This document shows, piece after piece, positions 3,258 to 15,739 of a stretch of 64,000 nt of DNA. The translations under genes were made by a program, and so were the position numbers. Source of the stretch: Burkholderia sp. L27(2015) (GTDB lineage: Bacteria; Pseudomonadota; Gammaproteobacteria; Burkholderiales; Burkholderiaceae); NCBI RefSeq assembly GCF_009765705.1, contig NZ_LMUX01000016.1:184837-248836 (forward strand), given 5' to 3'. Each line of letters starts with the position of its first letter. Within the stretch, counting starts at the first letter, position 1. The notes below the pieces were generated by a model that was not told where the DNA came from, did no database searches, and saw only the letters and a list, made by a program, of their open reading frames with translations.

Positions 3258-3887
3258 TCAATACGAGCCGCGTTCCAGATACGCCCAAGGCCGCTTTGCG
3301 CGATCGGTGGCGCGAAAACGCGCGATGCTGTCGTCGAGCTGCATGGTCAGATCGATTTCGTCAAGCCCGTTCAACAGCATGTCCCTGAGCTTTTTAGGTG
3401 TGACGAACGCAAACGTCAGCCCATCGGGCGCCGTGACACGCTCGTGTTCGAGGTCGACCTCGATCGGTGCGGTACCGTGCGAGCTTGCAACCTGTTGCAC
3501 CAGAGCGTTGACGGTCTCGATCGGCAAGATCACGGGTAGCACCCCGTTTCGAAAGCAATTGCCGAAAAAGATGTCACCGAAACTCGGCGCGATCACCGCG
3601 CGAAAACCCGACTGTCGCAATGCCCTCGGTGCTGCCTCGCGGGATGAGCCGCAACCGAAGTTCCGGTCGGTGAGGATGATCTCGGCCCGGTCGTAAGGCG
3701 CTCGATTCAATATGAACTCTGGGTCCGGCGTGCCGTCGGCGAGGCTGCGCCAATTTGCGAACAAGCCCTCGTTGAGGCCTTCCTCCGACGTGCGCAATAG
3801 AAAACGTGTCGGGATGATTTGATCCGTGTCGATATTGATCCGCATCATCGGCGCGGCGGTCGCGCGAATACGAGTGAACGATTCCAC
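3258..3887 (-). CDS. 3-isopropylmalate dehydratase-like small subunit (copy 1, divergent LeuD)
   Basis: A 209-residue swivel-domain subunit of an aconitase-superfamily hydro-lyase, partner of the large subunit encoded just upstream. Family signatures are INIDTDQIIPTRFL near the N-terminus and NFGCGSSRE followed by VIAPSFGDIFFGNC. The usual LeuD motif SREHAPWAL reads SREAAPRAL here, so the conserved His is Ala. This departs from biosynthetic LeuD and suggests another substrate, such as citramalate/citraconate or dimethylmalate-type acids (inference). No leuA or leuB is present; an organic-acid carrier follows. The GGAGAG upstream of the ATG supports the start at 3887. Confidence 0.85.
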   Translation of the reverse strand: MESFTRIRATAAPMMRINIDTDQIIPTRFLLRTSEEGLNEGLFANWRSLADGTPDPEFILNRAPYDRAEIILTDRNFGCGSSREAAPRALRQSGFRAVIAPSFGDIFFGNCFRNGVLPVILPIETVNALVQQVASSHGTAPIEVDLEHERVTAPDGLTFAFVTPKKLRDMLLNGLDEIDLTMQLDDSIARFRATDRAKRPWAYLERGSY

Positions 3888-3910: not shown

Positions 3911-3960
3911 CGTACCTAAGCGTACCTAAGCGTACCTAAGCGTACCTAAGCGTACCTAAG
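3911..3960. repeat. Five perfect 10-bp tandem repeats between leuC-like 1 and leuD-like 1
   Basis: CGTACCTAAG is repeated five times without a mismatch, preceded by a degraded copy TCGTACTAAG at 3901-3910. On the coding (minus) strand the unit is CTTAGGTACG, and the first copy supplies the TAG stop (3956-3958) of the leuC-like gene. The array fills most of the 68-nt gap between the two subunit genes, so copy-number slippage would change their spacing in 10-nt steps. Confidence 0.93.
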
Positions 3961-5437
3961 CGTGCGTCGAAAAGGTTCGCGCGTCGGCGAAGTGTCCGAG
4001 TATGGCCGAGGCCGCCACGGTTGCCGGACTGGCGAGGTGGGTGCGTGTTTTCGGGCCTTGGCGGTTTTCGAAATTTCGATTGGTGGTGCTGATCACGCGG
4101 CGGTTGGCGAGTCGATCGGCACCGCCGGTGGCGCACATCGCGCAACCGGGCTCCAGCCATTCGAAACCCGCGTCGCGAAACACCTGGTCCAATCCCGCAG
4201 CTTCCGCCGCGCGCTTCACCTGCGTCGAGCCTGGAACGCAAATCGCGAGGACATTTGCGGCGACCTTGCGCCCTCTGAGCACATCGGCGGCAACGCGCAG
4301 ATCCGACAAGCGAGCGTTCGTGCACGAGCCGATATAGGCGACGTCGATCGGGATTTGATCGACACGCGTACCGGGCGAAAGGCGTTGATAATCGAGCGCA
4401 GTACGCACCAGCTCCCGCGTGCCGGGATCGTCATAGTCGTCGGGCTCGGGTACCGTGCCATCGATGCCGACCGATTGCTGCGGGCTTGTTCCCCATGTCA
4501 CTTGCGGTGCGATCGTGGTGCTGTCGATTTTGACTTCCCGGTCGAACTGCGCACCCTCATCGGAGGGCAGCGTGCGCCAGTAGGCCACCGCTGCATCCCA
4601 TGCTGCGCCCTTGGGGACATATTCGCGATCTTTCAGGAACGCGTAGGTGAGTTCGTCCGGAGCGACGAATGCGTACCGCGCGGAGAATTCGATCCCCATA
4701 TTGCATAAGGTGAGTCGCCCCTCGATGGGCAGCGAGCGCACGGTGGATCCCGCAAATTCGACCGCGTAGCCGATTCCGCCATTGGCCCCGATCGAGCCGA
4801 TTAAGTGCAGTGCCATGTCCTTGGCTGACACGCCCGGACGCAGCGCCCCTTCAAACGAAATCCGCATGGTCTTGGGCTTGGCCTGGCGCAAGGTCTGGGT
4901 CGCCAGTACATGGACGCCCTCGCTGGATCCAACACCCCAGCCCAGCGTACCCAGCGCGCCCACCGTGCAGGTGTGGCTGTCGCCGCACACCAGTGTGGTG
5001 CCTGGCAATGTCAGGCCCAACTCCGGCGAGATCACATGGACGATGCCTTGGCGCGGATCGCCGATATTGAAGACCTGCAGCCCTTCTCGTGCCGAGGCGA
5101 CCAGCGTTTCCTCGATCATCGCGGTGGCCGTTTCGTTGCGTCCTTCCCCTGGGCGGCGGTCGGGGCGGATACTGACCACATGGTCGATCGCCGTGAACAC
5201 TTGACCCGGACTCGATGTTGCACGCCCAGCTTGCTTGAGTTCGCGCAGCGAGACCCCGCCTGTCACTTCATGCAGGAACAGGCGGTCGATCTGTAATAGC
5301 GCAGTGCGTTGAGTGGTGCCTTCTGTAGTGCCTTCCGTGGTGCACTCGGCTGGGTCTTCATCCAGCTCGGCAATGACGTGATCGCTCCAGACTTTTTCGA
5401 AGAAAGTGCGTGGTGCGTCCGTTTTGGTATCGGGCAT
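3956..5437 (-). CDS. 3-isopropylmalate dehydratase-like large subunit (copy 1, divergent LeuC)
   Basis: A 493-residue [4Fe-4S] hydro-lyase subunit of the aconitase superfamily. Cluster ligands are visible in GSCTNARLSDLR and in EPGCAMC near the C-terminus. The loop after the second cysteine pair reads ATGGADRLANRRVISTTNRNFENRQG and lacks the NPD...GER pattern of true LeuC. Close to the N-terminus there is a Thr/Glu/Gly repeat insert (TEGTTEGTTQ) absent from typical LeuC. The protein is about 25 residues longer than usual for the family. It is transcribed first, then the leuD-like gene and the MFS gene. A divergently oriented GntR gene suggests inducible catabolic control. Isopropylmalate dehydratase is the family name, not a proven activity. 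Confidence 0.86.
   Translation of the reverse strand: MPDTKTDAPRTFFEKVWSDHVIAELDEDPAECTTEGTTEGTTQRTALLQIDRLFLHEVTGGVSLRELKQAGRATSSPGQVFTAIDHVVSIRPDRRPGEGRNETATAMIEETLVASAREGLQVFNIGDPRQGIVHVISPELGLTLPGTTLVCGDSHTCTVGALGTLGWGVGSSEGVHVLATQTLRQAKPKTMRISFEGALRPGVSAKDMALHLIGSIGANGGIGYAVEFAGSTVRSLPIEGRLTLCNMGIEFSARYAFVAPDELTYAFLKDREYVPKGAAWDAAVAYWRTLPSDEGAQFDREVKIDSTTIAPQVTWGTSPQQSVGIDGTVPEPDDYDDPGTRELVRTALDYQRLSPGTRVDQIPIDVAYIGSCTNARLSDLRVAADVLRGRKVAANVLAICVPGSTQVKRAAEAAGLDQVFRDAGFEWLEPGCAMCATGGADRLANRRVISTTNRNFENRQGPKTRTHLASPATVAASAILGHFADARTFSTHA
5313..5348. repeat. In-frame 12-bp imperfect tandem repeat inside leuC-like 1
   Basis: Three 12-bp units of pattern GTGGTGCCTTCT / GTAGTGCCTTCC / GTGGTGCACTCG encode the repeated T-T-E-G block near residue 30 of the dehydratase. 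The period is a multiple of three, so the frame is kept. Confidence 0.8.
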
Positions 5438-5642: not shown

Positions 5643-6416
5643 ATGAGTAAGGACGATGCCGGGGCGATTCAGCGCGGTGGCGGAACACCATTGCACCATC
5701 AGGTTTTTCTGGTGGTACGCAGCGCGATTTTGTCGGGCCGGTACGCTGAAGGACAGATGCTGCCGAGCGAAGACGATTTCGCGAAGACGTTCGGCGTTTC
5801 GCGCGTGACGGTACGAAATGCGCTCGCGACGCTGCGCGCGCAATCGCTGGTCGAAAAGCGTCGCGGTGTCGGAACCTTTGTCTGCACGGGCAGAATGCGG
5901 GAAAAGCTGCGCGTGCCTAATGCCGATCTGATGGAGCATGTGCGCTCGGTGGGCGCGAGTACCCAGGTGAAGGTGCTTGATGTGAGCCGGGTCGCGGCGC
6001 CTGCGCATTTACAGGAATTCTTTCAATGCGAACCGGACGCGCAATTGCACCGCATCGTGCGCTTGCGGTCGATCGGCGCGCGGCCTGTATTTCATGTCGT
6101 CACTTACTTGTCGGATGCCGTGGGCAGTTTGTCGCGTAGCGACTTCCACCGACAATCGCTGTACACGTTGCTGGCCGAGCGTGGTGTGGAACTGTCTTCG
6201 GGTCGACAGATCGTCAGCGCGGCACTTGCGGATCCGAGCCTGGCGCGGCATCTGCAAACCATGGTCGGTGCGGCGCTGCTTTATATTCGTCGCTTCCACT
6301 ATGACCAACATGGCGCGCCGGCCGAATACATCGAATTTCATGCGACACCTCAGTCGTTCGAAATCGAAATGACGCTGGGTTCGGATGAGATAGGTACGCA
6401 TCGCGCCGCTGGTTGA
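5643..6416 (+). CDS. GntR-family regulator, HutC/UTRA type
   Basis: A 257-residue transcription factor. The N-terminal winged helix-turn-helix (about residues 15-80) contains LPSEDDFAKTFGVSRVTVRNALATL and VEKRRGVGTFV, the standard GntR pattern. The C-terminal half (about 95-245) has the UTRA ligand-binding fold signature, with a YLSDAVGSL segment and the closing FHATPQSFEIEM. UTRA domains bind small carboxylates, sugars or histidine-pathway intermediates. It is divergent from the leuC-like operon and upstream of the lyase-like gene, so it probably controls one or both. GGAG ahead of the ATG supports the start. Confidence 0.9.
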   Translation: MSKDDAGAIQRGGGTPLHHQVFLVVRSAILSGRYAEGQMLPSEDDFAKTFGVSRVTVRNALATLRAQSLVEKRRGVGTFVCTGRMREKLRVPNADLMEHVRSVGASTQVKVLDVSRVAAPAHLQEFFQCEPDAQLHRIVRLRSIGARPVFHVVTYLSDAVGSLSRSDFHRQSLYTLLAERGVELSSGRQIVSAALADPSLARHLQTMVGAALLYIRRFHYDQHGAPAEYIEFHATPQSFEIEMTLGSDEIGTHRAAG

Positions 6417-6597: not shown

Positions 6598-7554
6598 GTG
6601 TTGCACTTTCCAGAACGAATTACCGTCGTCGACGTATCGGCGCGCGATGGTCTGCAGAGCTTTCATCGCTGGGTCGACACCGACACCAAGGTGAAGATGG
6701 TCGATCGGCTTTCCGATGCTGGTTTTCCCGTCGTCGAAGTGACCAATTTCGCCCATCCCCGCGTGATCCCGCATCTGAAGGATGCCGAAGAGGTGATGGC
6801 GCGCATCACGCGTCGCCCCGGCACGGTCTATCGTGCCCAAGCGCCAAATCCGCGCGGCGCCGAACGTGCAGTTGCCGCACGCGCCGACGAGATTCTCGGT
6901 CTGATTACGGCGAGCGAAATCTATAATCTGAAAAATCAGAATATGACGCTTGAGCAGGGTGTTGAAGCCGCGCTCAAAACGTTTCGCGTCGCCGATGCTG
7001 CGCATACGCCGTTCTTGATGGCGATCGGCACGGCTTGGTGGTGCGCGTACGAAGGACGCATCGCGCCCGAGCGTGTGCTTGGCCTGATGGATCAATTGCG
7101 CAACGGCGGTATCAAGCGCTTTTACCTGGCCGATTCGATGGGATTGGAAGATCCGCGTCGAATCAACCAGTTGATCCGGATGACGCTGGATCGGTTTCCC
7201 GATATCGACGTCGGCTTCCACGTCCACAATACCGGGGGCAACGGTGCGGCCAATATGGTCGCGGCGCTCGATGCCGGGGCGAGTTTTATCGAGGGCAGTA
7301 TTTGCGGCATAGGCGGGGGCATCATGACGCCAACCAGTGTTGCCGCGGTGGGCAACCTAGCTACCGAGGACATCGTCCATATACTCAATGAGATGGAGGT
7401 GGAGACGGGGATATCGACCGAAGCTGCCGTCTCGGCCGCGCGCGATATCGCGGCCCTGCTCGATATACGATGTCTAAGCTACGTGAGCGCCGTGGGCACT
7501 CACAGCGAAGTGATGGCACAGGCTAAAACGCACGCGCGGTCTCACCCTGCATGA
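6598..7554 (+). CDS. HMG-CoA lyase-like (DRE-TIM) enzyme lacking the catalytic Cys
   Basis: A 318-residue TIM-barrel enzyme of the HMG-CoA lyase / isopropylmalate synthase superfamily. Start GTG 6598 follows GGAG by 7 nt; an upstream TTG (6568) gives a less likely N-terminus. Metal-site residues are present: Asp17 in ARDGLQ, His208 and His210 in HVH, and Asn253 in GNLATED. The G-loop, GLGGCPYA in true HMG-CoA lyase, reads GIGGGIMTP with about three extra residues, so the catalytic Cys is replaced by Gly241; the nearest Cys is 236. The fold and metal site therefore persist but the acid-base residue does not. Aldol-type cleavage of a tertiary hydroxyacyl-CoA such as citramalyl-CoA is possible, but a non-lyase role cannot be excluded. 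Confidence 0.82.
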   Translation: MLHFPERITVVDVSARDGLQSFHRWVDTDTKVKMVDRLSDAGFPVVEVTNFAHPRVIPHLKDAEEVMARITRRPGTVYRAQAPNPRGAERAVAARADEILGLITASEIYNLKNQNMTLEQGVEAALKTFRVADAAHTPFLMAIGTAWWCAYEGRIAPERVLGLMDQLRNGGIKRFYLADSMGLEDPRRINQLIRMTLDRFPDIDVGFHVHNTGGNGAANMVAALDAGASFIEGSICGIGGGIMTPTSVAAVGNLATEDIVHILNEMEVETGISTEAAVSAARDIAALLDIRCLSYVSAVGTHSEVMAQAKTHARSHPA

Positions 7555-7670: not shown

Positions 7671-8522
7671 ATGAAAACGACCAAGCCGCCGGTGGCACGG
7701 CGCAATAGCCGCATTGAAGAGATGCAGGCACCTGCTGCCGCTGCGGATTTCGCAGAGGTCGCTACGACCGTGAGTGCGGCCGCGAGCGCTGTGGGTGCCA
7801 ACGCGGTAGTGCCCGAGCCGCCAAGTTGGACGGCGGCCAAACGCGTCTTGCCCACCAAGCGTGCCAACAACGCGACCGACGCGGCATACGAAATCCTGCG
7901 CCAGAAGATCATGGACAGTGAGCTGGCGCCGGGTTCCCAATTGCTGGAGCAGGAGATCGCGCTGCTGCTCGGACTGAGCCGTACGCCGATACGCGAGGCC
8001 TTGATACGTTTGCAGCTCGAAGGACTGGTGCAGGTGATTCCGCGTCACGGCATACGGATCGTGCCGACGTCGATTTCCGACATCAAGGAGATCTACGAAG
8101 TGCTGATCAGCCTTGAACCGACGGCCGCATCGCTGATTGCAAGCGCCCAGCCGCCGGTCGACGTCGCGCCGCTCGAATCCGCCTGCAATGACATGACCGA
8201 GGCGCTCGAACGAGGCGACATGCAAGCGTGGGCATTGGCCGATGAAGCATTTCATTTGCAACTGGTCGTGCTCAGCGGCAACAAGCGCTTGAGCGATATC
8301 GTGATGACGTGCTGGGATCAGGTGCATCGGGTCCGCCAATTCACGCAACGGCTACGCCCACATCCGCAGCCTCGCGAGTCTATCGCGGAGCACCGCGCGA
8401 TCATCGAGGCAATTCGCGGCGGCGACGCCAAATTGGCCGCCGATCTGTATCGCCGCCACCGCGAACGCGGCTGGCGCGACCAGACCAGCGTGTTGAAGCA
8501 ATACCGGATCCACCAAGCCTGA
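7671..8522 (+). CDS. GntR-family regulator, FadR/FCD type
   Basis: A 283-residue regulator. After an unusual Ala/Val-rich N-terminal extension of about 65 residues comes the winged helix (AYEILRQKIMDSELAPG, then LSRTPIREALIRL and VIPRHGIRIV). An all-helical FCD effector domain (about 140-270) follows, with a metal/ligand pattern including DEAFHLQLV and EHRAIIEAI. FCD regulators typically sense carboxylates or acyl-CoA-derived metabolites. It lies directly downstream of the dyad array and upstream of the CoA-transferase and transporter genes. The N-terminal extension is unlike most family members and resembles other Ala-rich tails in this window; a later start is possible but no better start with a Shine-Dalgarno was seen. 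Confidence 0.87.
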   Translation: MKTTKPPVARRNSRIEEMQAPAAAADFAEVATTVSAAASAVGANAVVPEPPSWTAAKRVLPTKRANNATDAAYEILRQKIMDSELAPGSQLLEQEIALLLGLSRTPIREALIRLQLEGLVQVIPRHGIRIVPTSISDIKEIYEVLISLEPTAASLIASAQPPVDVAPLESACNDMTEALERGDMQAWALADEAFHLQLVVLSGNKRLSDIVMTCWDQVHRVRQFTQRLRPHPQPRESIAEHRAIIEAIRGGDAKLAADLYRRHRERGWRDQTSVLKQYRIHQA

Positions 8523-8688: not shown

Positions 8689-8708
8689 CATTAAATCATC
8701 GATTAATG
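8689..8708. promoter_or_regulatory. Inverted repeat ahead of the CoA-transferase gene
   Basis: CATTAA (8689-8694) and TTAATG (8703-8708) form a perfect dyad around 8 nt. An upstream ATG (8706) lies inside it, which supports the later start at 8733 for the gene and makes this a candidate GntR operator or promoter element. Confidence 0.4.
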
Positions 8709-8732
8709 AACGTCGAACAGGAGCTTGTCCCC

Positions 8733-10001
8733 ATGACCTCCGAGCAGATCGAATCCGAGCAAGCATCGCATGTCCGCTTGCCCCTCGAAGGCGTACGGGT
8801 GATCGATATCGCGTCCTTTCTTGCGGCGCCGATCGGCGCCATGTTCATGGCGGATTTCGGCGCCGAGGTCATCAAGGTCGAGCGACCCGGCACGGGCGAT
8901 GAATCGCGGTTCTGGGGCAACAACAAGAACGGCATAGGTTTGTACGCCAAGGTTCTCAACCGCAACAAGAAATCCGTCACAGCCGATCTGCGTACGCCGT
9001 TGGGTGCCGAGATCCTCAAGCGGCTGGTCAAGGACGCCGACGTGCTGGTGGAGAACTTCCGTCCGGGTACGCTGGAGCGTTGGGGCTTAGGCTGGGATGT
9101 CCTCTGCGCCATCAATCCACGGCTGGTGATGCTGCGCATTACGGGTTTCGGTCAAACCGGCCCGAACGCCGCGAGGCCCGGTTTCGGAACGCTGGCCGAA
9201 GCCTACAGCGGCTTCGCCCACATCAACGGCAATGCGGGCCAGCCGCCGATCCTGCCCGCGTTCGGGTTGGCGGATTCTACCGCGGGGCTGATGGGTGCGT
9301 TTCTCGCGATGGTCGCGCTCAAGGGGCGCGACGTTAACGGCGGCAAAGGTCAATTCATCGATCTCGCCTTGTACGAACCGCTGTTTATGCTGCTCGGCCC
9401 GCAAGCGATCGATTTTGATCAACTCGGACTGGTCCAGGAGCGTAACGGCAGCCTGCACTCCTTCACCGCGCCGCGCAATTGCTATTGCACCAAAGACGGC
9501 AAATATGTCGCGATCGCGGGTGCCTCGCAGTCGACCTTCGAGCGCATGTGCGTGGCGCTCGAAGTGCCCGATATACCGAACGATCCACGCTTTCGCGACA
9601 ATCGGCTGCGCATGAAGAACAATCGCGAACTCGATCCGGCGCTCGGCGCGGCCGCGGCGCGCTTTACGCTGGACGAGCTGATGGAGCGCTTCATCGCGTG
9701 TGAAGCGGCCGCGGCGCCGGTCAACACGATAGCCCAGGTGTTCGAGGATCCACATTTCGCCGCGCGAGAAAATCTCGTGTCGATCTTCGACGAAGAAATC
9801 GGCGCTTCGCTGCGCTTTCAGAATATCGTCGGCAAGCTTTCAGCGACCCCGGGCCGCGTACGCCATACCGCGCAAAAATTGGGCGCCAGCAATCGCGCGA
9901 TTTTGATCGATGAGTTGGGATTTACGGAAGAGCAGTTGGAAGCCGGCGAAGCACGCAGTGAAGCACGTAGCGAAACCCGCGGCAAAAATCTAGCTATTTA
10001 G
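8733..10001 (+). CDS. CaiB/BaiF family (class III) CoA-transferase
   Basis: A 422-residue enzyme that would move CoA between carboxylic acids through an aspartyl-CoA thioester. The large domain is evident from VRVIDIASFLAAPIGAMFMADFGAEVIKVERPG, and NRNKKSVTADLRTPLG and VLVENFRPGTLERWGLG follow. The catalytic Asp is in FGLADSTAGL, about residue 181. I preferred ATG 8733, which has AGGAG 9 nt upstream, over ATG 8706. The C-terminus carries a repeat (EARSEARSET) that looks like a recent tandem duplication. Within this island it is the likely activation step that feeds the lyase-like enzyme. Substrate unknown; succinyl-CoA is the usual donor in the family. Confidence 0.9.
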   Translation: MTSEQIESEQASHVRLPLEGVRVIDIASFLAAPIGAMFMADFGAEVIKVERPGTGDESRFWGNNKNGIGLYAKVLNRNKKSVTADLRTPLGAEILKRLVKDADVLVENFRPGTLERWGLGWDVLCAINPRLVMLRITGFGQTGPNAARPGFGTLAEAYSGFAHINGNAGQPPILPAFGLADSTAGLMGAFLAMVALKGRDVNGGKGQFIDLALYEPLFMLLGPQAIDFDQLGLVQERNGSLHSFTAPRNCYCTKDGKYVAIAGASQSTFERMCVALEVPDIPNDPRFRDNRLRMKNNRELDPALGAAAARFTLDELMERFIACEAAAAPVNTIAQVFEDPHFAARENLVSIFDEEIGASLRFQNIVGKLSATPGRVRHTAQKLGASNRAILIDELGFTEEQLEAGEARSEARSETRGKNLAI

Positions 10002-10121
10002 CCTAGGCGGCGTATGCCGTGCGTGGGTGTAGGATCTGTATTGACGAGTTGCGACCATAACGTGACCGTAGGAGTGTGTAGGCCAACTTCGCTAACGATA
10101 AAAAAATCAGGAGACCGCACC

Positions 10122-11099
10122 ATGAAAGCATTTCGTGCTGTAGCACGCATCGCCGGCGTCGCCGCCATTTCGGCCGCTGCCTCGTTGGCTCAGGCCAGCT
10201 CGCTAACCGTTACGCACTGGGCCGATGGCATGTACGGCGTGCCGTTCGCGGTGGCGTACGAGAAGGGCTATTTCAAGGAGGCCGGCATCGATGTGACTGG
10301 GTTCATTACTTCGGAAGGCGGCGGCACCACGGTGCGCAATGCGATGGCATCCGAAATACCCTATGGCGAAGTGGCGTTGCCCGCGGCAATTGCCGCGTCT
10401 CAGCAAGGCGTGCCGCTAACCATTGTGCATGGCGGCGTGCTGAGCCTGGCCGATCTGGTGTGGGTCGAACTCAAGGATTCGGATATCAACGGTATCGCCC
10501 AGATGAAGGGTAAGAAGCTGGGCTATAGCAGCCCGAAGTCCACCACCGACATGGTCTCCACGATAGGTCTGTCGAACGCGGGGCTGCTCGGCCAGGTTGA
10601 ACGCAAGCCGGTGGGCTCGTCAAGCGGTGCAATGACTGCGCTGCAGCAGCATGCGGTCGACGCGGCGTACATGACGGAGCCCTCGTATAGCGAGAAAAAA
10701 GCAGCGCTGAAGATCGCCTTTCGCGCCGTCGATATCGTGCCCAAGGAGACCCAGACGGTCGGCGTGGTGCGCACCGATTACCTCAAGCAACACCCCGATG
10801 TGATCCGCGGCATCATCAATGCGCGCCGCAAAGGTGTCGAATTCATCAAGGCGCATCCCGATGAAGCGGGAAAAATTCTCGCTAAGGAATACAAAATGGA
10901 CCCAGCGGTTGCGACCGCTGCGATCAAGAATGTCCTGGCGAGCGACCCCAACTATTGGAGCACCGGTGGGTTCGACTATAACGGCATGAACGAACTGCTC
11001 AAGGGTCTGGTGTTGGTCAAGGCAATCGAGCCGGGCCCGTTCGACTGGTCGAAGATCGTCGACGACTCGCTGCTGCCGGCGAGCGAACGCTCCAAATAA
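10122..11099 (+). CDS. NitT/TauT-type ABC transporter substrate-binding protein
   Basis: A 325-residue periplasmic protein. The N-terminus MKAFRAVARIAG...ASLAQASS is a Sec signal peptide with a likely cleavage after ALAQA-like residues near 25. The mature part starts with a SsuA/TauA/NMT1-like lobe (YGVPFAVAYEKGYFKEAGIDV) and an SEGGGTTVRNA ligand-loop pattern. AGGAG precedes the ATG by 8 nt. It is the first gene of a four-gene importer. Family members bind sulfonates, nitrate, pyrimidine precursors or aromatic acids. The neighbourhood favours a carboxylate, but the ligand cannot be read from the sequence. Confidence 0.88.
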   Translation: MKAFRAVARIAGVAAISAAASLAQASSLTVTHWADGMYGVPFAVAYEKGYFKEAGIDVTGFITSEGGGTTVRNAMASEIPYGEVALPAAIAASQQGVPLTIVHGGVLSLADLVWVELKDSDINGIAQMKGKKLGYSSPKSTTDMVSTIGLSNAGLLGQVERKPVGSSSGAMTALQQHAVDAAYMTEPSYSEKKAALKIAFRAVDIVPKETQTVGVVRTDYLKQHPDVIRGIINARRKGVEFIKAHPDEAGKILAKEYKMDPAVATAAIKNVLASDPNYWSTGGFDYNGMNELLKGLVLVKAIEPGPFDWSKIVDDSLLPASERSK

Positions 11100-11110
11100 G
11101 GAGAAGGGTG

Positions 11111-11974
11111 ATGGGCCCATTACGCAAACCCGGTACACCGCTGTCGGTGGTGTCGGCCAATCCGACTTCACCAGCGGGGCCGCAGATTCACGCAACGCTG
11201 ACCGACGTGACGCGCATTTACGCGGGCAGTAAAGGCCGGCCGCCGTTTCATGCGTTGGGTCCGGTCAGCCTGAACTTGCGTGCCGGTGAATTTTTTTCGG
11301 TAGTCGGGCCTTCGGGATGCGGCAAATCGACCTTGCTCGATGTGATGGCCGGGCTTAATCCGGCCAGCAGCGGCAGCGTGATCTTTGAAGGCGCGCCGGT
11401 GCACGCCAAGGTGCCCGACGGTGTGGCGGTGGTGTTCCAGGAGGACGCTACCTTTCCCTGGCTGACGGTGTATGACAACGCCGCATTCGGGGCACGTCGC
11501 GCGGGGCTGCCCGAGCCGGAGATTCGTGAACGGGTCGAGCATGCTCTGGCGTTTATGGGCCTGAAGGCGTTTACGCAGGCGTACCCGGCACAGCTCTCGG
11601 GCGGCATGCGTCAGCGCGTGTGCATCGCGCGTGCGATGGTGGTGCGCCCGCGCCTGATGCTGCTCGACGAGCCGTTCGGAGCGCTGGATCAGCAAACGCG
11701 CCTGCTGATGGGCGACGAGATGCTCAAGCTATGGCGTGACACGGGCGCCACCGTGATGTTGATCACCCACTCGATCGACGAAGCCGTGCTGCTGTCGGAT
11801 CGCATCGGTGTGATGTCGGCCTGCCCGGGGCGCTTTATCGAAACGATAGAGACCAACTGGCCGCGCGAGCGCGACAGCAATACCGCACTCGATGCGCGCT
11901 TTGGCGAGCTGACGGCGCGCGTCTGGGGCCTGTTGCGTGGCGAGGCCATGAAAGCGCTCGGGAGCCAGACATGA
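11111..11974 (+). CDS. NitT/TauT-type ABC transporter ATP-binding protein
   Basis: A 287-residue ATPase. Walker A is GPSGCGKSTLLD, the Q-loop is VVFQEDATFPWLTVYDN, the ABC signature is LSGGMRQRVCIARAMV, Walker B is LMLLDEPFGALDQQTR and the H-loop is LITHSIDEAVLLSDRI. The DEPFGALDxxTR form is typical of the SsuB/TauB/NrtD group. ATG 11111 follows AAGGAG by 7 nt; a GTG immediately upstream (11108) is less favoured. It overlaps the next gene by 4 nt (ATGA), which indicates translational coupling. Confidence 0.93.
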   Translation: MGPLRKPGTPLSVVSANPTSPAGPQIHATLTDVTRIYAGSKGRPPFHALGPVSLNLRAGEFFSVVGPSGCGKSTLLDVMAGLNPASSGSVIFEGAPVHAKVPDGVAVVFQEDATFPWLTVYDNAAFGARRAGLPEPEIRERVEHALAFMGLKAFTQAYPAQLSGGMRQRVCIARAMVVRPRLMLLDEPFGALDQQTRLLMGDEMLKLWRDTGATVMLITHSIDEAVLLSDRIGVMSACPGRFIETIETNWPRERDSNTALDARFGELTARVWGLLRGEAMKALGSQT

Positions 11975-12729
11975 ACCTTGCCGCGCGCTGGCGCGTCGCG
12001 CTTGTGGTCGCATTTGTCCTCACGCTGGAACTGGCGAGCCGACTCGCGTGGATCGACCCGGTCTCGTTCATCCCGCCCTCGCGCATGGTCGTGGGCGCGT
12101 GGCAACTGCTGCGCTCGGGCGACTACACCGATGACATCCTGCTTACGCTGAGCAGTGCCGCACTCGCGGTGGTGTTGGCGGTGGTCGCCGGGTTCGCTTT
12201 TGGCGTGGCGCTATATAAACTGCCGCGCGTACGTCGGGTGCTGGATCCCTTGCTGATGTCGTACTACGCCGTGCCGATCTTCGTGATCTATCCGATCTTG
12301 ATCGTGTTGATGGGGCTGAACCGTTGGCCGTTGATCGCGTTGGGCGTGCTGTTCGCCGTCGTGGCGATGGCGGTCAACACCTTGAATGGCCTGGAGCGCG
12401 TGCCGCGCGTCATGTTGCGCACGGCACGGGCATTGCGCATGAGCCCGCTCGCCGAGATTCGCTTGATCACCTTGCCGGCCAGCCTGCCTTTTGTGTTCAC
12501 GGGCATCAAGCTCTCGGTGGTGTATGCCTTTATTGCGATCGTTGCCGGAGAATTCGTGTTGTCGGGTTCGGGCTTTGGCTACCGGATCGCGTTCGCCTAT
12601 AACAACTTCGACAATCCGAGCATGTATGGCTTGATGCTGTTGCTGCTGCTGTTTGTCGGCACGCTCAATATGCTGTTGCATATGGCCGAGGCTCGACTCT
12701 ATCGGCGTATGAGCCGGGCGGCGACATGA
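11971..12729 (+). CDS. NitT/TauT-type ABC transporter permease 1
   Basis: A 252-residue inner-membrane permease with about six hydrophobic segments. The BPD-transport EAA-type loop is visible in ALRMSPLAEIRLITLPASLPFVFTGI. SsuC/TauC-like elements include FIPPSRMVVGAWQLL at the start and YYAVPIFVIYPILIVLMGLNRWP. It overlaps both neighbours by 4 nt. Most importers of this class use one permease gene as a homodimer; here a second, different permease follows, so the channel is probably a heterodimer. Confidence 0.9.
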   Translation: MNLAARWRVALVVAFVLTLELASRLAWIDPVSFIPPSRMVVGAWQLLRSGDYTDDILLTLSSAALAVVLAVVAGFAFGVALYKLPRVRRVLDPLLMSYYAVPIFVIYPILIVLMGLNRWPLIALGVLFAVVAMAVNTLNGLERVPRVMLRTARALRMSPLAEIRLITLPASLPFVFTGIKLSVVYAFIAIVAGEFVLSGSGFGYRIAFAYNNFDNPSMYGLMLLLLLFVGTLNMLLHMAEARLYRRMSRAAT

Positions 12730-13511
12730 GCACCGTCACCTCGACTACGGCGCGCGAACTCGGTACGCCGCGCGCGTCGCGCTCCTGGAGCGATGCCGTG
12801 ATTCTGGTGCTGGCGTTGCTGGTGCTGTGGCAACTGTGCAGCTGGCTGGCCGGCCCGGAGATTTTGCCTACGCCCTGGCGCACCGCGGTGAAGGCGTTGA
12901 AGATCGTGCGTGACGAAGATTTCCCGCAAAGCCTGGAAGCGACGGGCATTGCATTCATCGCGGCCCTCGTCATCTCCGCAATCGGCGGCGTCTCGCTCGG
13001 CCTGGTGCTTGGTGCGCGCCGGCTCGCGGGCGACGTGATGGAGCCGCTGTTGATGGCGTTTTACGCGCTGCCCAAGATCACGCTGTATCCCGTGGTGTTG
13101 CTGATGTTCGGGCTCGGACTCTCGGCCAAGATCACCTTTGGCGTCATCCACGGGATTATTCCGATCACCGTCTTCACCATGGGCGCCGTGCGCAACATGC
13201 CTATCGTCTATGCACGCACCGCCTTGGCGTACCGGCTCACGCCACTCGATTTCGCGCGCTATGTGATGTTGCCGGCGGCGATTCCGGAGGTGGTGGCGGG
13301 CCTGCGCATCGGCTTTTCGCTGACCTTGCTCGGTACGCTGATCGGCGAGATGTTCGCCTCGCAAAGCGGCATCGGCCACATGCTGATGATCGCGATGGCC
13401 CGCAACGATACCGAGACCATCATGGCGCTCGCGCTCATGCTGTTCCTGTTCGCCACGGGGGTTAATTTACTGTTGCTGCGCTGGCATCACCGGCTTGCAA
13501 AAACGGGCTGA
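12726..13511 (+). CDS. NitT/TauT-type ABC transporter permease 2
   Basis: A 261-residue permease with six hydrophobic segments and the cytoplasmic loop ALAYRLTPLDFARYVMLPAAIPEVVAGLRIGFS. It is related to permease 1 but clearly not a recent duplicate (compare FYALPKITLYPVVLLMFGLGLSAK). Start ATG overlaps the stop of permease 1 (ATGA). The stop codon at 13509-13511 overlaps the start of a 13-bp tandem repeat array. It forms the importer with the three preceding genes. Confidence 0.9.
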   Translation: MSTVTSTTARELGTPRASRSWSDAVILVLALLVLWQLCSWLAGPEILPTPWRTAVKALKIVRDEDFPQSLEATGIAFIAALVISAIGGVSLGLVLGARRLAGDVMEPLLMAFYALPKITLYPVVLLMFGLGLSAKITFGVIHGIIPITVFTMGAVRNMPIVYARTALAYRLTPLDFARYVMLPAAIPEVVAGLRIGFSLTLLGTLIGEMFASQSGIGHMLMIAMARNDTETIMALALMLFLFATGVNLLLLRWHHRLAKTG

Positions 13512-13574: not shown

Positions 13575-13637
13575 GACGCGGGGACTATCCTCGGGCTGAC
13601 CTCAGGCCGGTGAGCTGTCAACTTGCATGGAGACATC

Positions 13638-15116
13638 ATGGCTGCTGTTCGAAATCCTGTCGCGCCTGTGCCAGGCGTACATAGTTCAATGGCCTATTCG
13701 GGCCCACGCACGCTGTTCGAAAAACTCTGGGAGCCGCACACGATCGCGCAACTGCCAGGCAAGGTCGACCTGCTGCAAGTAGATCGGCATCTGATGCATG
13801 AGCTGACCGGTGTCGAGGCCGTGCGCGTTCTGGAGCGGCGCGGTTTGCCGGTGCGCAATCCGGATCTGACTTTCGCTACGCTCGATCACGTGATCTCGAC
13901 CGAACCCGGTCGTACCGCCGGCGACGAGCCCTGGAGCAGCGAGATGGTCGACGCGATGCGCGCCCAGATGGGACGCCTGGGCATCCCCATATTCGATATC
14001 GGCGATGGGCGTCAGGGCATCGTGCACGTGATCGGCCCCGAGTTGGGACTCTCTTTGCCGGGGACGCTGATTGTCTGCGGCGACAGCCACACTTGTACGC
14101 ACGGTGCGTTCGGCGCGCTGGCTTGGGGTATAGGCTCAAGCGAACTCGTGCACGTGCTGGGCACCCAGACGATCCGCCAAGTGCGGCCCAAGACAATGCG
14201 GGTGCGCTTCGAAGGGGCTGTGCCTCCCGGCGTCACCGCCAAGGACATGATCCTGTACTTGATCGGCCAGTTGGGGGCGGCTGCCGGTACCGGTTATGCG
14301 GTCGAATACGCCGGCCCGGCCGTCGAGGCGCTCTCGATGGAAGGGCGGATGACCTTATGCAATTTGACCATCGAGCTGGGCGCCAAATTCGGCCTGGTAG
14401 CGCCCGACGACACGACCTTCGCGTATTTGCGCGGGCGCGAGTACGCGCCGCAGGGCGCGGCATTCGATGCGGCGGTAGCGCAATGGCGTACGCTCTACAG
14501 CGACGCCGGCGCGAATTTCGACCGCGACGTGCAGATCGATGCGGCAGCCATTTCGCCTCAGGTGACGTGGGGCACCAGCCCGGAGCATGTGATTGCGCTG
14601 GATGCCGCCGTGCCGGACCCTGCCCGTGAACCCGATCTCGCGCGACGTGTGGCGCTGCAGACCGCGCTCGAATACATGGACGTGCACGCTGGGCAGCGGC
14701 TAGGTGAGCTTGATGTCGACCGGGTGTTCATCGGTTCGTGCACCAACAGCCGAATCGAAGACCTGCGCGCCGCGGCCGAAGTGGTCAACGGCTTGCACGT
14801 GGCGCAGGGCGTGAGAGCCTGGGTCGTGCCGGGCTCGTTGAGCGTGGCGCGGCAAGCGGCCGAGGAGGGCCTGGATCAGATATTTCGGGCCGCGGGGTTC
14901 GAATGGCGCGAGCCGGGCTGTTCGATGTGCGTGGGCGCCAATGGCGATGTGGTTGGTCCCGGCGAGCGCTGCGTCTCGACGTCGAACCGCAATTTTGCCG
15001 GCCGCCAGGGACCGGGCGCCCGGACGCATTTGGCCAGCCCGGCCGTCGCCGCCGCCAGCGCGTTGGCCGGTCACATTGCAGCGCCTTGCGTGCGCGGCGC
15101 GCGAGGTGTCGCATGA
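13638..15116 (+). CDS. 3-isopropylmalate dehydratase-like large subunit (copy 2, divergent LeuC)
   Basis: A 492-residue [4Fe-4S] hydro-lyase subunit. The start is ATG 13638 with GGAG 5 nt upstream; an in-frame TTG at 13623 is less likely. Cluster motifs are GSCTNSRIEDLRAAAEV and EPGCSMC. The loop after the last Cys reads VGANGDVVGPGERCVSTSNRNFAGRQG, closer to true LeuC than copy 1 but with ANGD where LeuC has AMNPD. It overlaps the leuD-like partner by 4 nt. Copies 1 and 2 are clearly diverged, so they may act on different isomers or successive intermediates (inference). Confidence 0.87.
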   Translation: MAAVRNPVAPVPGVHSSMAYSGPRTLFEKLWEPHTIAQLPGKVDLLQVDRHLMHELTGVEAVRVLERRGLPVRNPDLTFATLDHVISTEPGRTAGDEPWSSEMVDAMRAQMGRLGIPIFDIGDGRQGIVHVIGPELGLSLPGTLIVCGDSHTCTHGAFGALAWGIGSSELVHVLGTQTIRQVRPKTMRVRFEGAVPPGVTAKDMILYLIGQLGAAAGTGYAVEYAGPAVEALSMEGRMTLCNLTIELGAKFGLVAPDDTTFAYLRGREYAPQGAAFDAAVAQWRTLYSDAGANFDRDVQIDAAAISPQVTWGTSPEHVIALDAAVPDPAREPDLARRVALQTALEYMDVHAGQRLGELDVDRVFIGSCTNSRIEDLRAAAEVVNGLHVAQGVRAWVVPGSLSVARQAAEEGLDQIFRAAGFEWREPGCSMCVGANGDVVGPGERCVSTSNRNFAGRQGPGARTHLASPAVAAASALAGHIAAPCVRGARGVA

Positions 15117-15739
15117 AACCGTTCACGATATGCCGCGGCCCCGCGGCCCCGCTGCTGCGCAACAACGTCGATACCGACCTGATCATCCGGATCGAACGCA
15201 TATCGCAATTGCGACGCGGCCAATTTGCGACATGGACATTCGAAACCTTGCGCTATTTGGGCGAGGGACCGCAGAGTGGCGAGCGAGCCGATTTCATCCT
15301 CAACCAGCCGGCGTTTCGGCAGGCATGCATCCTCCTTGCGGGCGACAACTTCGGCTGCGGTAGCTCGCGCGAAATGGCGGTATGGGCGCTCGAGGAATTC
15401 GGCTTGCGTTGCGTGATCGCGCCGAGTTTTGGCGATATCTTCCGCAGCAATTGTCTGCAGAACGGACTGCTGCCGGTTGTTCTGCCGGCGCCGGCGATCG
15501 CTGCGCTTGCAGCAGTGGCGAGTGACGGCACGCCGCTCGAAGTGGATTTGACAGAACTGGAAGTGCGCGCGCCGGGGCTGGCGCCGATGCGATTCGAATT
15601 CGATTCGGTGCAACAGACCGCGTTGCTCGAAGGGCTGGATGAAATCGATCAGACGCTGCTGTTGATGAACGAGATCGAGGCGTTTCAGCGCACGGACCGG
15701 CAACAACGAAAGTGGATTTATGGGCAACCGCGCGGCTAA
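15113..15739 (+). CDS. 3-isopropylmalate dehydratase-like small subunit (copy 2, divergent LeuD)
   Basis: A 208-residue swivel subunit paired with the preceding gene through an ATGA overlap. Motifs are NNVDTDLIIRIERISQL (family: DTDQIIP) and NFGCGSSREMAVWALEEFGLRCVIAPSFGDIF. The conserved LeuD sequence SREHAPWAL is altered to SREMAVWAL, so the His is Met, and the DTDQIIP motif reads DTDLIIR. These changes sit around the substrate-recognition region and argue for a substrate other than isopropylmalate. A true biosynthetic leuCD should exist elsewhere in the genome. Confidence 0.85.
   Translation: MKPFTICRGPAAPLLRNNVDTDLIIRIERISQLRRGQFATWTFETLRYLGEGPQSGERADFILNQPAFRQACILLAGDNFGCGSSREMAVWALEEFGLRCVIAPSFGDIFRSNCLQNGLLPVVLPAPAIAALAAVASDGTPLEVDLTELEVRAPGLAPMRFEFDSVQQTALLEGLDEIDQTLLLMNEIEAFQRTDRQQRKWIYGQPRG

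Follow-up and report, generated by a model that had tools for sequence, protein, structure and literature searches.

The gene at 6598–7554 of the window (the whole 64,000-nucleotide stretch of Burkholderia sp. L27(2015) DNA analysed here) encodes a real and conserved enzyme of the HMG-CoA lyase family in which the G-loop is rebuilt around a GGG motif and the catalytic cysteine is absent. The same Cys-less loop is common to 18 homologues from alpha- and betaproteobacteria, haloarchaea and Chloroflexota, which constitute a deep, monophyletic branch of the family, previously unnamed by the curated models searched (Pfam and NCBIfam). Searches of the open-licence literature for clusters of HMGL, LeuCD and CoA-transferase and for (R)-citramalyl-CoA lyase found no paper on this clade.

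A Cys-less branch of the HMG-CoA lyase family

The open reading frame is intact, with a GTG start and a GGAG about 8 nt upstream, and its product has 318 residues. A Pfam profile search gave a match to HMGL-like (PF00682) with an E value of 1.2e-37, and the score against the NCBIfam HMG-CoA lyase model PRK05692 (243.7 bits) fell narrowly below the cut-off of 246. The AlphaFold model has a mean pLDDT of 95.3, and the fold is that of human HMG-CoA lyase (VIA Z of 43.5). The protein belongs to the TIM-barrel lyases of the DRE-TIM/HMG-CoA lyase family, which use a divalent metal; R16, D17, H208, H210 and N253 are invariant and the VIA Z is 43.9. Its features, in window coordinates, are:

6598–7554, + strand: Cys-less HMGL-like lyase, 318 residues (profile matches, orthologues, structure model)
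6646–6648, + strand: metal ligand D17 (human D42; invariant in the alignment; PMC6941031)
6832–6834, + strand: R79, invariant in the clade and mostly Ser/Thr elsewhere (alignment)
6922–6924, + strand: Y109, invariant in the clade and His/Phe elsewhere (alignment)
7021–7041, + strand: A142 to W148, covering human Y167 (here Ala) and G173 (here Trp) (alignments; constant offset of 25)
7132–7134, + strand: D179 (human D204), kept as Asp in the window protein (alignment)
7219–7227, + strand: metal ligands H208 and H210 (human H233 and H235; invariant in the alignment)
7303–7305, + strand: codon of C236, Cys in 16 of the 18 clade members and Gly in the two from Chloroflexota
7306–7356, + strand: G-loop G237–N253, GIGGGIMTPTSVAAVGN where ordinary lyases read GLGGC-PYAPGATGN, with a three-residue insertion placed before P245 (alignments)
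7354–7356, + strand: metal ligand N253 (human N275; invariant in the alignment)

The earlier note on this DNA, made from the sequence alone, had described intact metal ligands, a lost loop cysteine and about three extra loop residues, and all three observations stand. An alignment of 49 sequences shows no variation at D17, H208, H210 and N253, which match the metal ligands D42, H233, H235 and N275 of human HMGL (PMC6941031). The numbering offset to the human enzyme is 25 up to the loop (D17/D42, R16/R41, E47/E72, H208/H233, H210/H235) and 22 past it (N253/N275), so that the window loop is longer by exactly three residues. Since P245 and the spacing from this proline to the GN pair (G252–N253) are conserved, the insertion is best placed before the CP, as GG-GIM-TP, which makes T244 the position of the catalytic Cys; if the insertion is placed after the Cys position instead, that position becomes G241, and neither alignment yields a cysteine. 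Among 144 aligned family members, the canonical loop Cys is present in all 126 ordinary members and in none of the 18 of the GGG clade, the position being Thr in the window protein and Met, Leu or Ile in its relatives. The window lyase thus lacks the catalytic Cys of the GGCP motif that characterizes HMG-CoA lyase (EC 4.1.3.4). A sequencing error or a pseudogene is ruled out, the loop being kept in 17 relatives, a conservation well beyond chance.

The homologue search that had been suggested for the GGG loop returned these 17 relatives, which group with the window protein in one clade (support 100/99) in a maximum-likelihood tree computed from 77 sequences without the loop columns. The number of members is a lower bound (at least 18), and the analyses take in 18. 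GGG is followed by Ile, Val, Met or Thr in every one of them. Orthologues at 47–55% identity, from five more genomes of the host's order and from additional beta- and alphaproteobacterial contigs, keep GGG[IM]AMP or GGGMAIP; the haloarchaeal members, which lie on megaplasmids, are 34–40% identical and read GGG[VT][VI]LP; and the member at locus L036 (Acetobacteraceae) has a GGG loop and a shorter tail. Such lyases are rare: in the order, six of the 349 genomes searched carry one (counting the genome of the window and those reaching at least 49% identity), as do two of 301 Chloroflexota genomes.

Judging from the alignments, the loop change is one among several linked active-site changes, which involve the equivalents of human D204, Y167 and G173 together with R79 and Y109. 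All members of the clade share R79, Y109 and G144, and 16 of the 18 have Trp, Phe or Tyr at position 148 (human G173). The equivalent of human Tyr167, which is listed among the critical HMGL residues (PMC6941031), is A142 in the window protein and Ala or Gly across the ten clade members of one alignment; the tyrosine of HMG-CoA lyase is therefore missing, although it is a weak discriminator, as some ordinary bacterial lyases have Thr. The position of D179 (human D204) is Asp in 126 of 126 ordinary lyases and in three of the 18 clade members, including the window protein, and Gly or Thr in most of the clade, a variation suggesting that members may differ in substrate.

To account for the missing cysteine, it had been proposed either that C236 substitutes or that the enzyme employs a different acid or has another activity. 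In the alignment, C236 stands opposite a Gly/Ala position, eight residues ahead of the Cys position, and in the model it lies on a rigid, ordered turn after strand 8; the block containing it (231–240) has a pLDDT of 95, and the loop block (241–250), at 72, is the least certain part of the model. It is not private to the window protein, being conserved in all members of the clade except the two with Gly. The misalignment, the ordered turn and the two glycines make a simple substitution by C236 unlikely, and as a direct stand-in it is disfavoured. The other branch of the proposal, a different acid or another reaction, is rated probable.

Gene neighbourhoods in the window and across the clade

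In the window, the lyase gene lies between two GntR-type regulators and is followed by a CoA-transferase, an importer and a LeuCD pair, and another LeuCD pair lies upstream on the opposite strand:

3258–3887, − strand: LeuD-type hydratase small subunit, copy 1 (profile matches)
3956–5437, − strand: LeuC-type hydratase large subunit, copy 1 (profile matches)
5643–6416, + strand: GntR/UTRA (HutC-like) regulator (profile match)
7671–8522, + strand: GntR/FCD regulator, between lyase and CoA-transferase (profile match)
8706–10001, + strand: family III (CaiB) CoA-transferase, the partner gene (profile matches; clade of transferases neighbouring GGG lyases)
10014–13511, + strand: NMT1/SsuABC-type ABC importer, with gene starts at 10014 (substrate-binding protein) and 11108 (ATPase), both from profiles, and at 11971 and 12726 (permeases, from the ORF list)
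13623–15116, + strand: LeuC-type hydratase large subunit, copy 2 (profile matches)
15107–15739, + strand: LeuD-type hydratase small subunit, copy 2 (profile matches)

The CoA-transferase matches PF02515 (CoA_transf_3) with an E value of 1e-112 and has the family III fold. Against the leuC equivalog cut-off of 560.25, LeuC copy 1 scores 539.8 bits and copy 2 637, and another paralogue, encoded elsewhere in the genome, reaches 790.8; the host genome as a whole carries an unusual hydratase load, with seven LeuC-type paralogues and several HacA/aconitase types. The LeuD of the leucine pathway usually has the motif GSSREHAP. The window copies read GSSREAAP (3258–3887) and GSSREMAV (15107–15739), motifs that suggest a changed substrate.

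A CoA-transferase neighbours the lyase in 14 of the 18 clade members, directly upstream in most and two genes downstream in the window. These transferases themselves form one clade (100/98) spanning Proteobacteria, haloarchaea and Chloroflexota; in the remaining four members no such gene was found within the stretch seen, which for one of them is a very short contig. Three annotated haloarchaeal plasmids show the order CoA-transferase, lyase, LeuC, LeuD, and a fourth, unannotated haloarchaeal record (L028) has the same CaiB-HMGL-LeuC-LeuD order by homology only. The haloarchaeal LeuC is of the hacA/IPMI_arch type (545 bits against a cut-off of 385), whereas the window LeuC is of the bacterial PRK12466/leuC type; the two are not orthologous, which indicates that LeuCD was recruited to the cassette independently, at least twice. 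Around the other proteobacterial members of the clade, LeuCD is absent over a distance of about 10 kb.

The recurrent neighbours of the clade are enzymes of branched C5/C6 diacids. At L111 and L031, a RipB/Ich-like MaoC protein, a RipC/CitE-like lyase, MmgE/PrpD and an acyl-CoA dehydrogenase lie beside the clade lyase, a make-up like that of itaconate/methylsuccinate clusters (PMC12290011). At L155, the lyase is adjoined by PrpB (methylisocitrate lyase; 448.7 bits against a cut-off of 353) and an MmgE/PrpD-like ORF also lies beside it. Members without LeuCD often come with a CitE-type lyase, in the cluster or elsewhere in the genome (L111, L031, L112, L154 and the genomes of L035, L036 and L155), and these lyases make up a single orthologous group (54–93% identity). 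LeuCD and this companion were not seen together, the closest CitE of the window genome being at most 42% identical and the search in haloarchaea covering the plasmid only.

Haloarchaeal operons add a dihydropyrimidinase/hydantoinase-type amidohydrolase (262 bits, below the hydantoinase cut-off) and an isochorismatase-fold hydrolase. The megaplasmid operons L024, L029 and L030 each combine these two enzymes with the CoA-transferase, the Cys-less lyase and LeuCD, those of L024 and L029 also containing a luciferase-like monooxygenase, and are candidates for a cyclic imide or N-heterocycle degradation pathway.

Two further loci were noted. On the conjugative Sphingobium plasmid pMI1 (L023, 7757–11944), a CaiB-HMGL-LeuC-LeuD operon whose lyase is of the ordinary GGCP type sits among cytochrome P450 and dehydrogenase genes. 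It is a separate use of the three-step scheme of CoA-transferase, lyase and LeuCD, and association with LeuCD alone is thus no predictor of the GGG loop. In a genome of the same order as the window (L114, 11625–13208), an AtuA-family protein is encoded near the lyase; AtuA takes its name from the utilisation of acyclic terpenes, which likewise passes through HMG-like intermediates.

Known relatives and the proposed reaction

The structures of HMG-CoA lyases from human (HMGCL; PDB codes 2cw6 and 3mp3), B. subtilis (1ydo) and P. aeruginosa (2ftp) resemble the window lyase over the whole length of the fold (VIA Z of 42–44, 29–33% identity) and share the metal ligands, R16 and E47. Unlike these enzymes, the clade has no G-loop Cys, a loop three residues longer and changed equivalents of Y167 and G173, has lost D204 in most members, branches separately and has a CoA-transferase partner. 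The nearest known function is that of the Chloroflexus (R)-citramalyl-CoA lyase (Ccl), which Friedmann and colleagues reportedly assigned to the HMG-CoA lyase family. In the Sct–Ccl pair at L160, which we take to be that of Chloroflexus aurantiacus, the HMGL-family lyase likewise accompanies a family III CoA-transferase (Sct), lying directly downstream of it. Ccl, however, keeps GGCPFAPRAVGN and branches among the ordinary GGCP lyases, and neither Ccl nor Sct belongs to the lyase or CoA-transferase clade found here, which rules out identity of the window enzyme with Ccl; at most the clade works in a similar way. The two activities are classified as (R)-citramalyl-CoA lyase (EC 4.1.3.46) and succinyl-CoA:D-citramalate CoA-transferase (EC 2.8.3.20) (PMC8307300). 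A HMG-CoA lyase from A. baumannii (PDB code 6nds; 33% identity), with CoA and 3-methylmalate bound and an ordinary GGCPFAPGASGN loop, supports the accommodation of malate-type ligands in the HMGL fold. The same kind of reaction is performed on citramalyl-, malyl- and HMG-CoA by the Rv2498c/CitE-type beta-hydroxyacyl-CoA lyases and RipC (PMC6689899), which belong to PF03328, are unrelated in sequence and of opposite stereochemistry, and of which none is encoded near the window lyase. LeuCD-type hydratases include isopropylmalate isomerase, maleate hydratase and the dimethylmaleate hydratase DmdAB, and the window and haloarchaeal cassettes both carry LeuCD pairs.

These comparisons lead us to propose, with roughly even confidence, that the clade comprises CoA-dependent lyases for an (R)-2-hydroxy-diacyl-CoA in diacid catabolism that use a different proton donor, the substrate probably being citramalyl-, methylmalyl- or alkylmalyl-CoA. 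In its favour are the single Cys-less clade, the single clade of its partner transferases, the repeated recruitment of LeuCD, the diacid enzymes at L111, L031 and L155, and the ligands bound in 6nds. The constant family III CoA-transferase partner makes a CoA thioester the most likely substrate and disfavours an aldolase acting on free hydroxy acids. TIM-type HMGLs act on (S)-HMG-CoA, and (R)-HMG-CoA and (S)-citramalyl-CoA are the substrates of a CitE-type lyase (PMC6689899). By geometry, a TIM-type lyase should then take (R)-citramalyl-CoA. Hydration of citraconate by LeuCD-type enzymes gives the (R) hand, as established for isopropylmalate isomerase. A 2-hydroxy-diacid of the (R)-malate type (citramalate, 3-methylmalate or a dialkylmalate) would be imported or made by LeuCD, activated to its CoA thioester by the family III CoA-transferase and split by the lyase between the carbinol carbon and the carbon adjoining the thioester, to yield either pyruvate or glyoxylate as the 2-oxoacid, together with acetyl-CoA or propionyl-CoA. 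The metal on D17, H208, H210 and N253 would polarise the hydroxyl as in HMG-CoA lyase, R16 and E47 being kept; deprotonation of the hydroxyl on the metal and C–C cleavage would then yield the 2-oxoacid and an acyl-CoA enolate. The proton for the enolate, which in HMG-CoA lyase is supplied by the loop Cys, would have another source, perhaps water, Y109 or, where present, C236. Alternatively, the rebuilt loop may only close over a smaller acid.

As Ccl keeps its GGCP motif outside the clade, citramalyl-CoA alone fails to explain the loss of the cysteine. The missing LeuCD near the other proteobacterial members, the four members with no clade CoA-transferase in the stretch seen and the variation at D179 also count against the proposal. 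A possible, if doubtful, extension is that the clade represents a Cys-independent class of (R)-alkylmalyl-CoA lyases that perform the last step of an undescribed route, separately assembled in proteobacteria and haloarchaea. Such a route would run from an alkylmaleate or maleimide through LeuCD hydration and CoA transfer to cleavage, and would have been built around one inherited CoA-transferase/lyase pair.

Three other readings were weighed against that of a lyase for an (R)-2-hydroxy-diacyl-CoA. That the enzyme still cleaves HMG-CoA or a close analogue, with C236, Y109 or a similar residue taking over as the acid, appears unlikely, although the fold is the same as that of the human enzyme, the PRK05692 score is only about 2 bits short, R16, E47 and the metal ligands are kept, and the partner CoA-transferase scores best on the succinate-glutarate CoA-transferase model and so could convert free HMG to HMG-CoA. 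Against it, three ordinary GGCP lyases are already present in the host, two of the four residues given as the most critical ones of human HMGL (PMC6941031) have changed jointly, the LeuCD and PrpB neighbours are a misfit for HMG and C236 is not universal. Also improbable is a lyase dedicated to a C6 or larger alkylmalyl-CoA, such as (2R,3S)-2,3-dimethylmalyl- or 3-methylmalyl-CoA, that yields propionyl-CoA and in haloarchaea would end a cyclic imide route (amidohydrolase, isochorismatase amidase, LeuCD, CoA-transferase, lyase). The haloarchaeal gene order with its amidohydrolase and isochorismatase-fold hydrolase, the PrpB and MmgE/PrpD-like ORF at L155 and the 3-methylmalate in 6nds are consistent with it; against it, the window holds no imide or dimethylmaleate enzyme, the amidohydrolase does not reach the hydantoinase cut-off, and the replacement of G173 by a bulky Trp, Tyr or Phe makes a larger pocket not obvious.

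We consider it very improbable that the Cys-less enzymes cleave no C–C bond at all and that the same metal site performs a Claisen-type condensation or a dehydration. Isopropylmalate and homocitrate synthases and 4-hydroxy-2-oxovalerate aldolase function without the HMGL loop Cys, so that other DRE-TIM enzymes, structural relatives among them, do manage without it; the setting of the clade is nevertheless catabolic (importer, CoA-transferase, GntR regulators and hydratases), and the synthase-type loop GERAGN is not present.

Implications

Genes with the GGG loop that are annotated as 'hydroxymethylglutaryl-CoA lyase' are probably misannotated. The clade is a candidate for the degradation of citraconate or (R)-citramalate; a P. 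putida strain with an itaconate cluster could use neither compound (PMC9875883). The loop cysteine is regarded as necessary for catalysis by HMG-CoA lyase, and a branch of the family that lacks it, with the metal site kept and a CoA-transferase as fixed partner, would reveal what the mechanism can do without and by what means the lost part is replaced.
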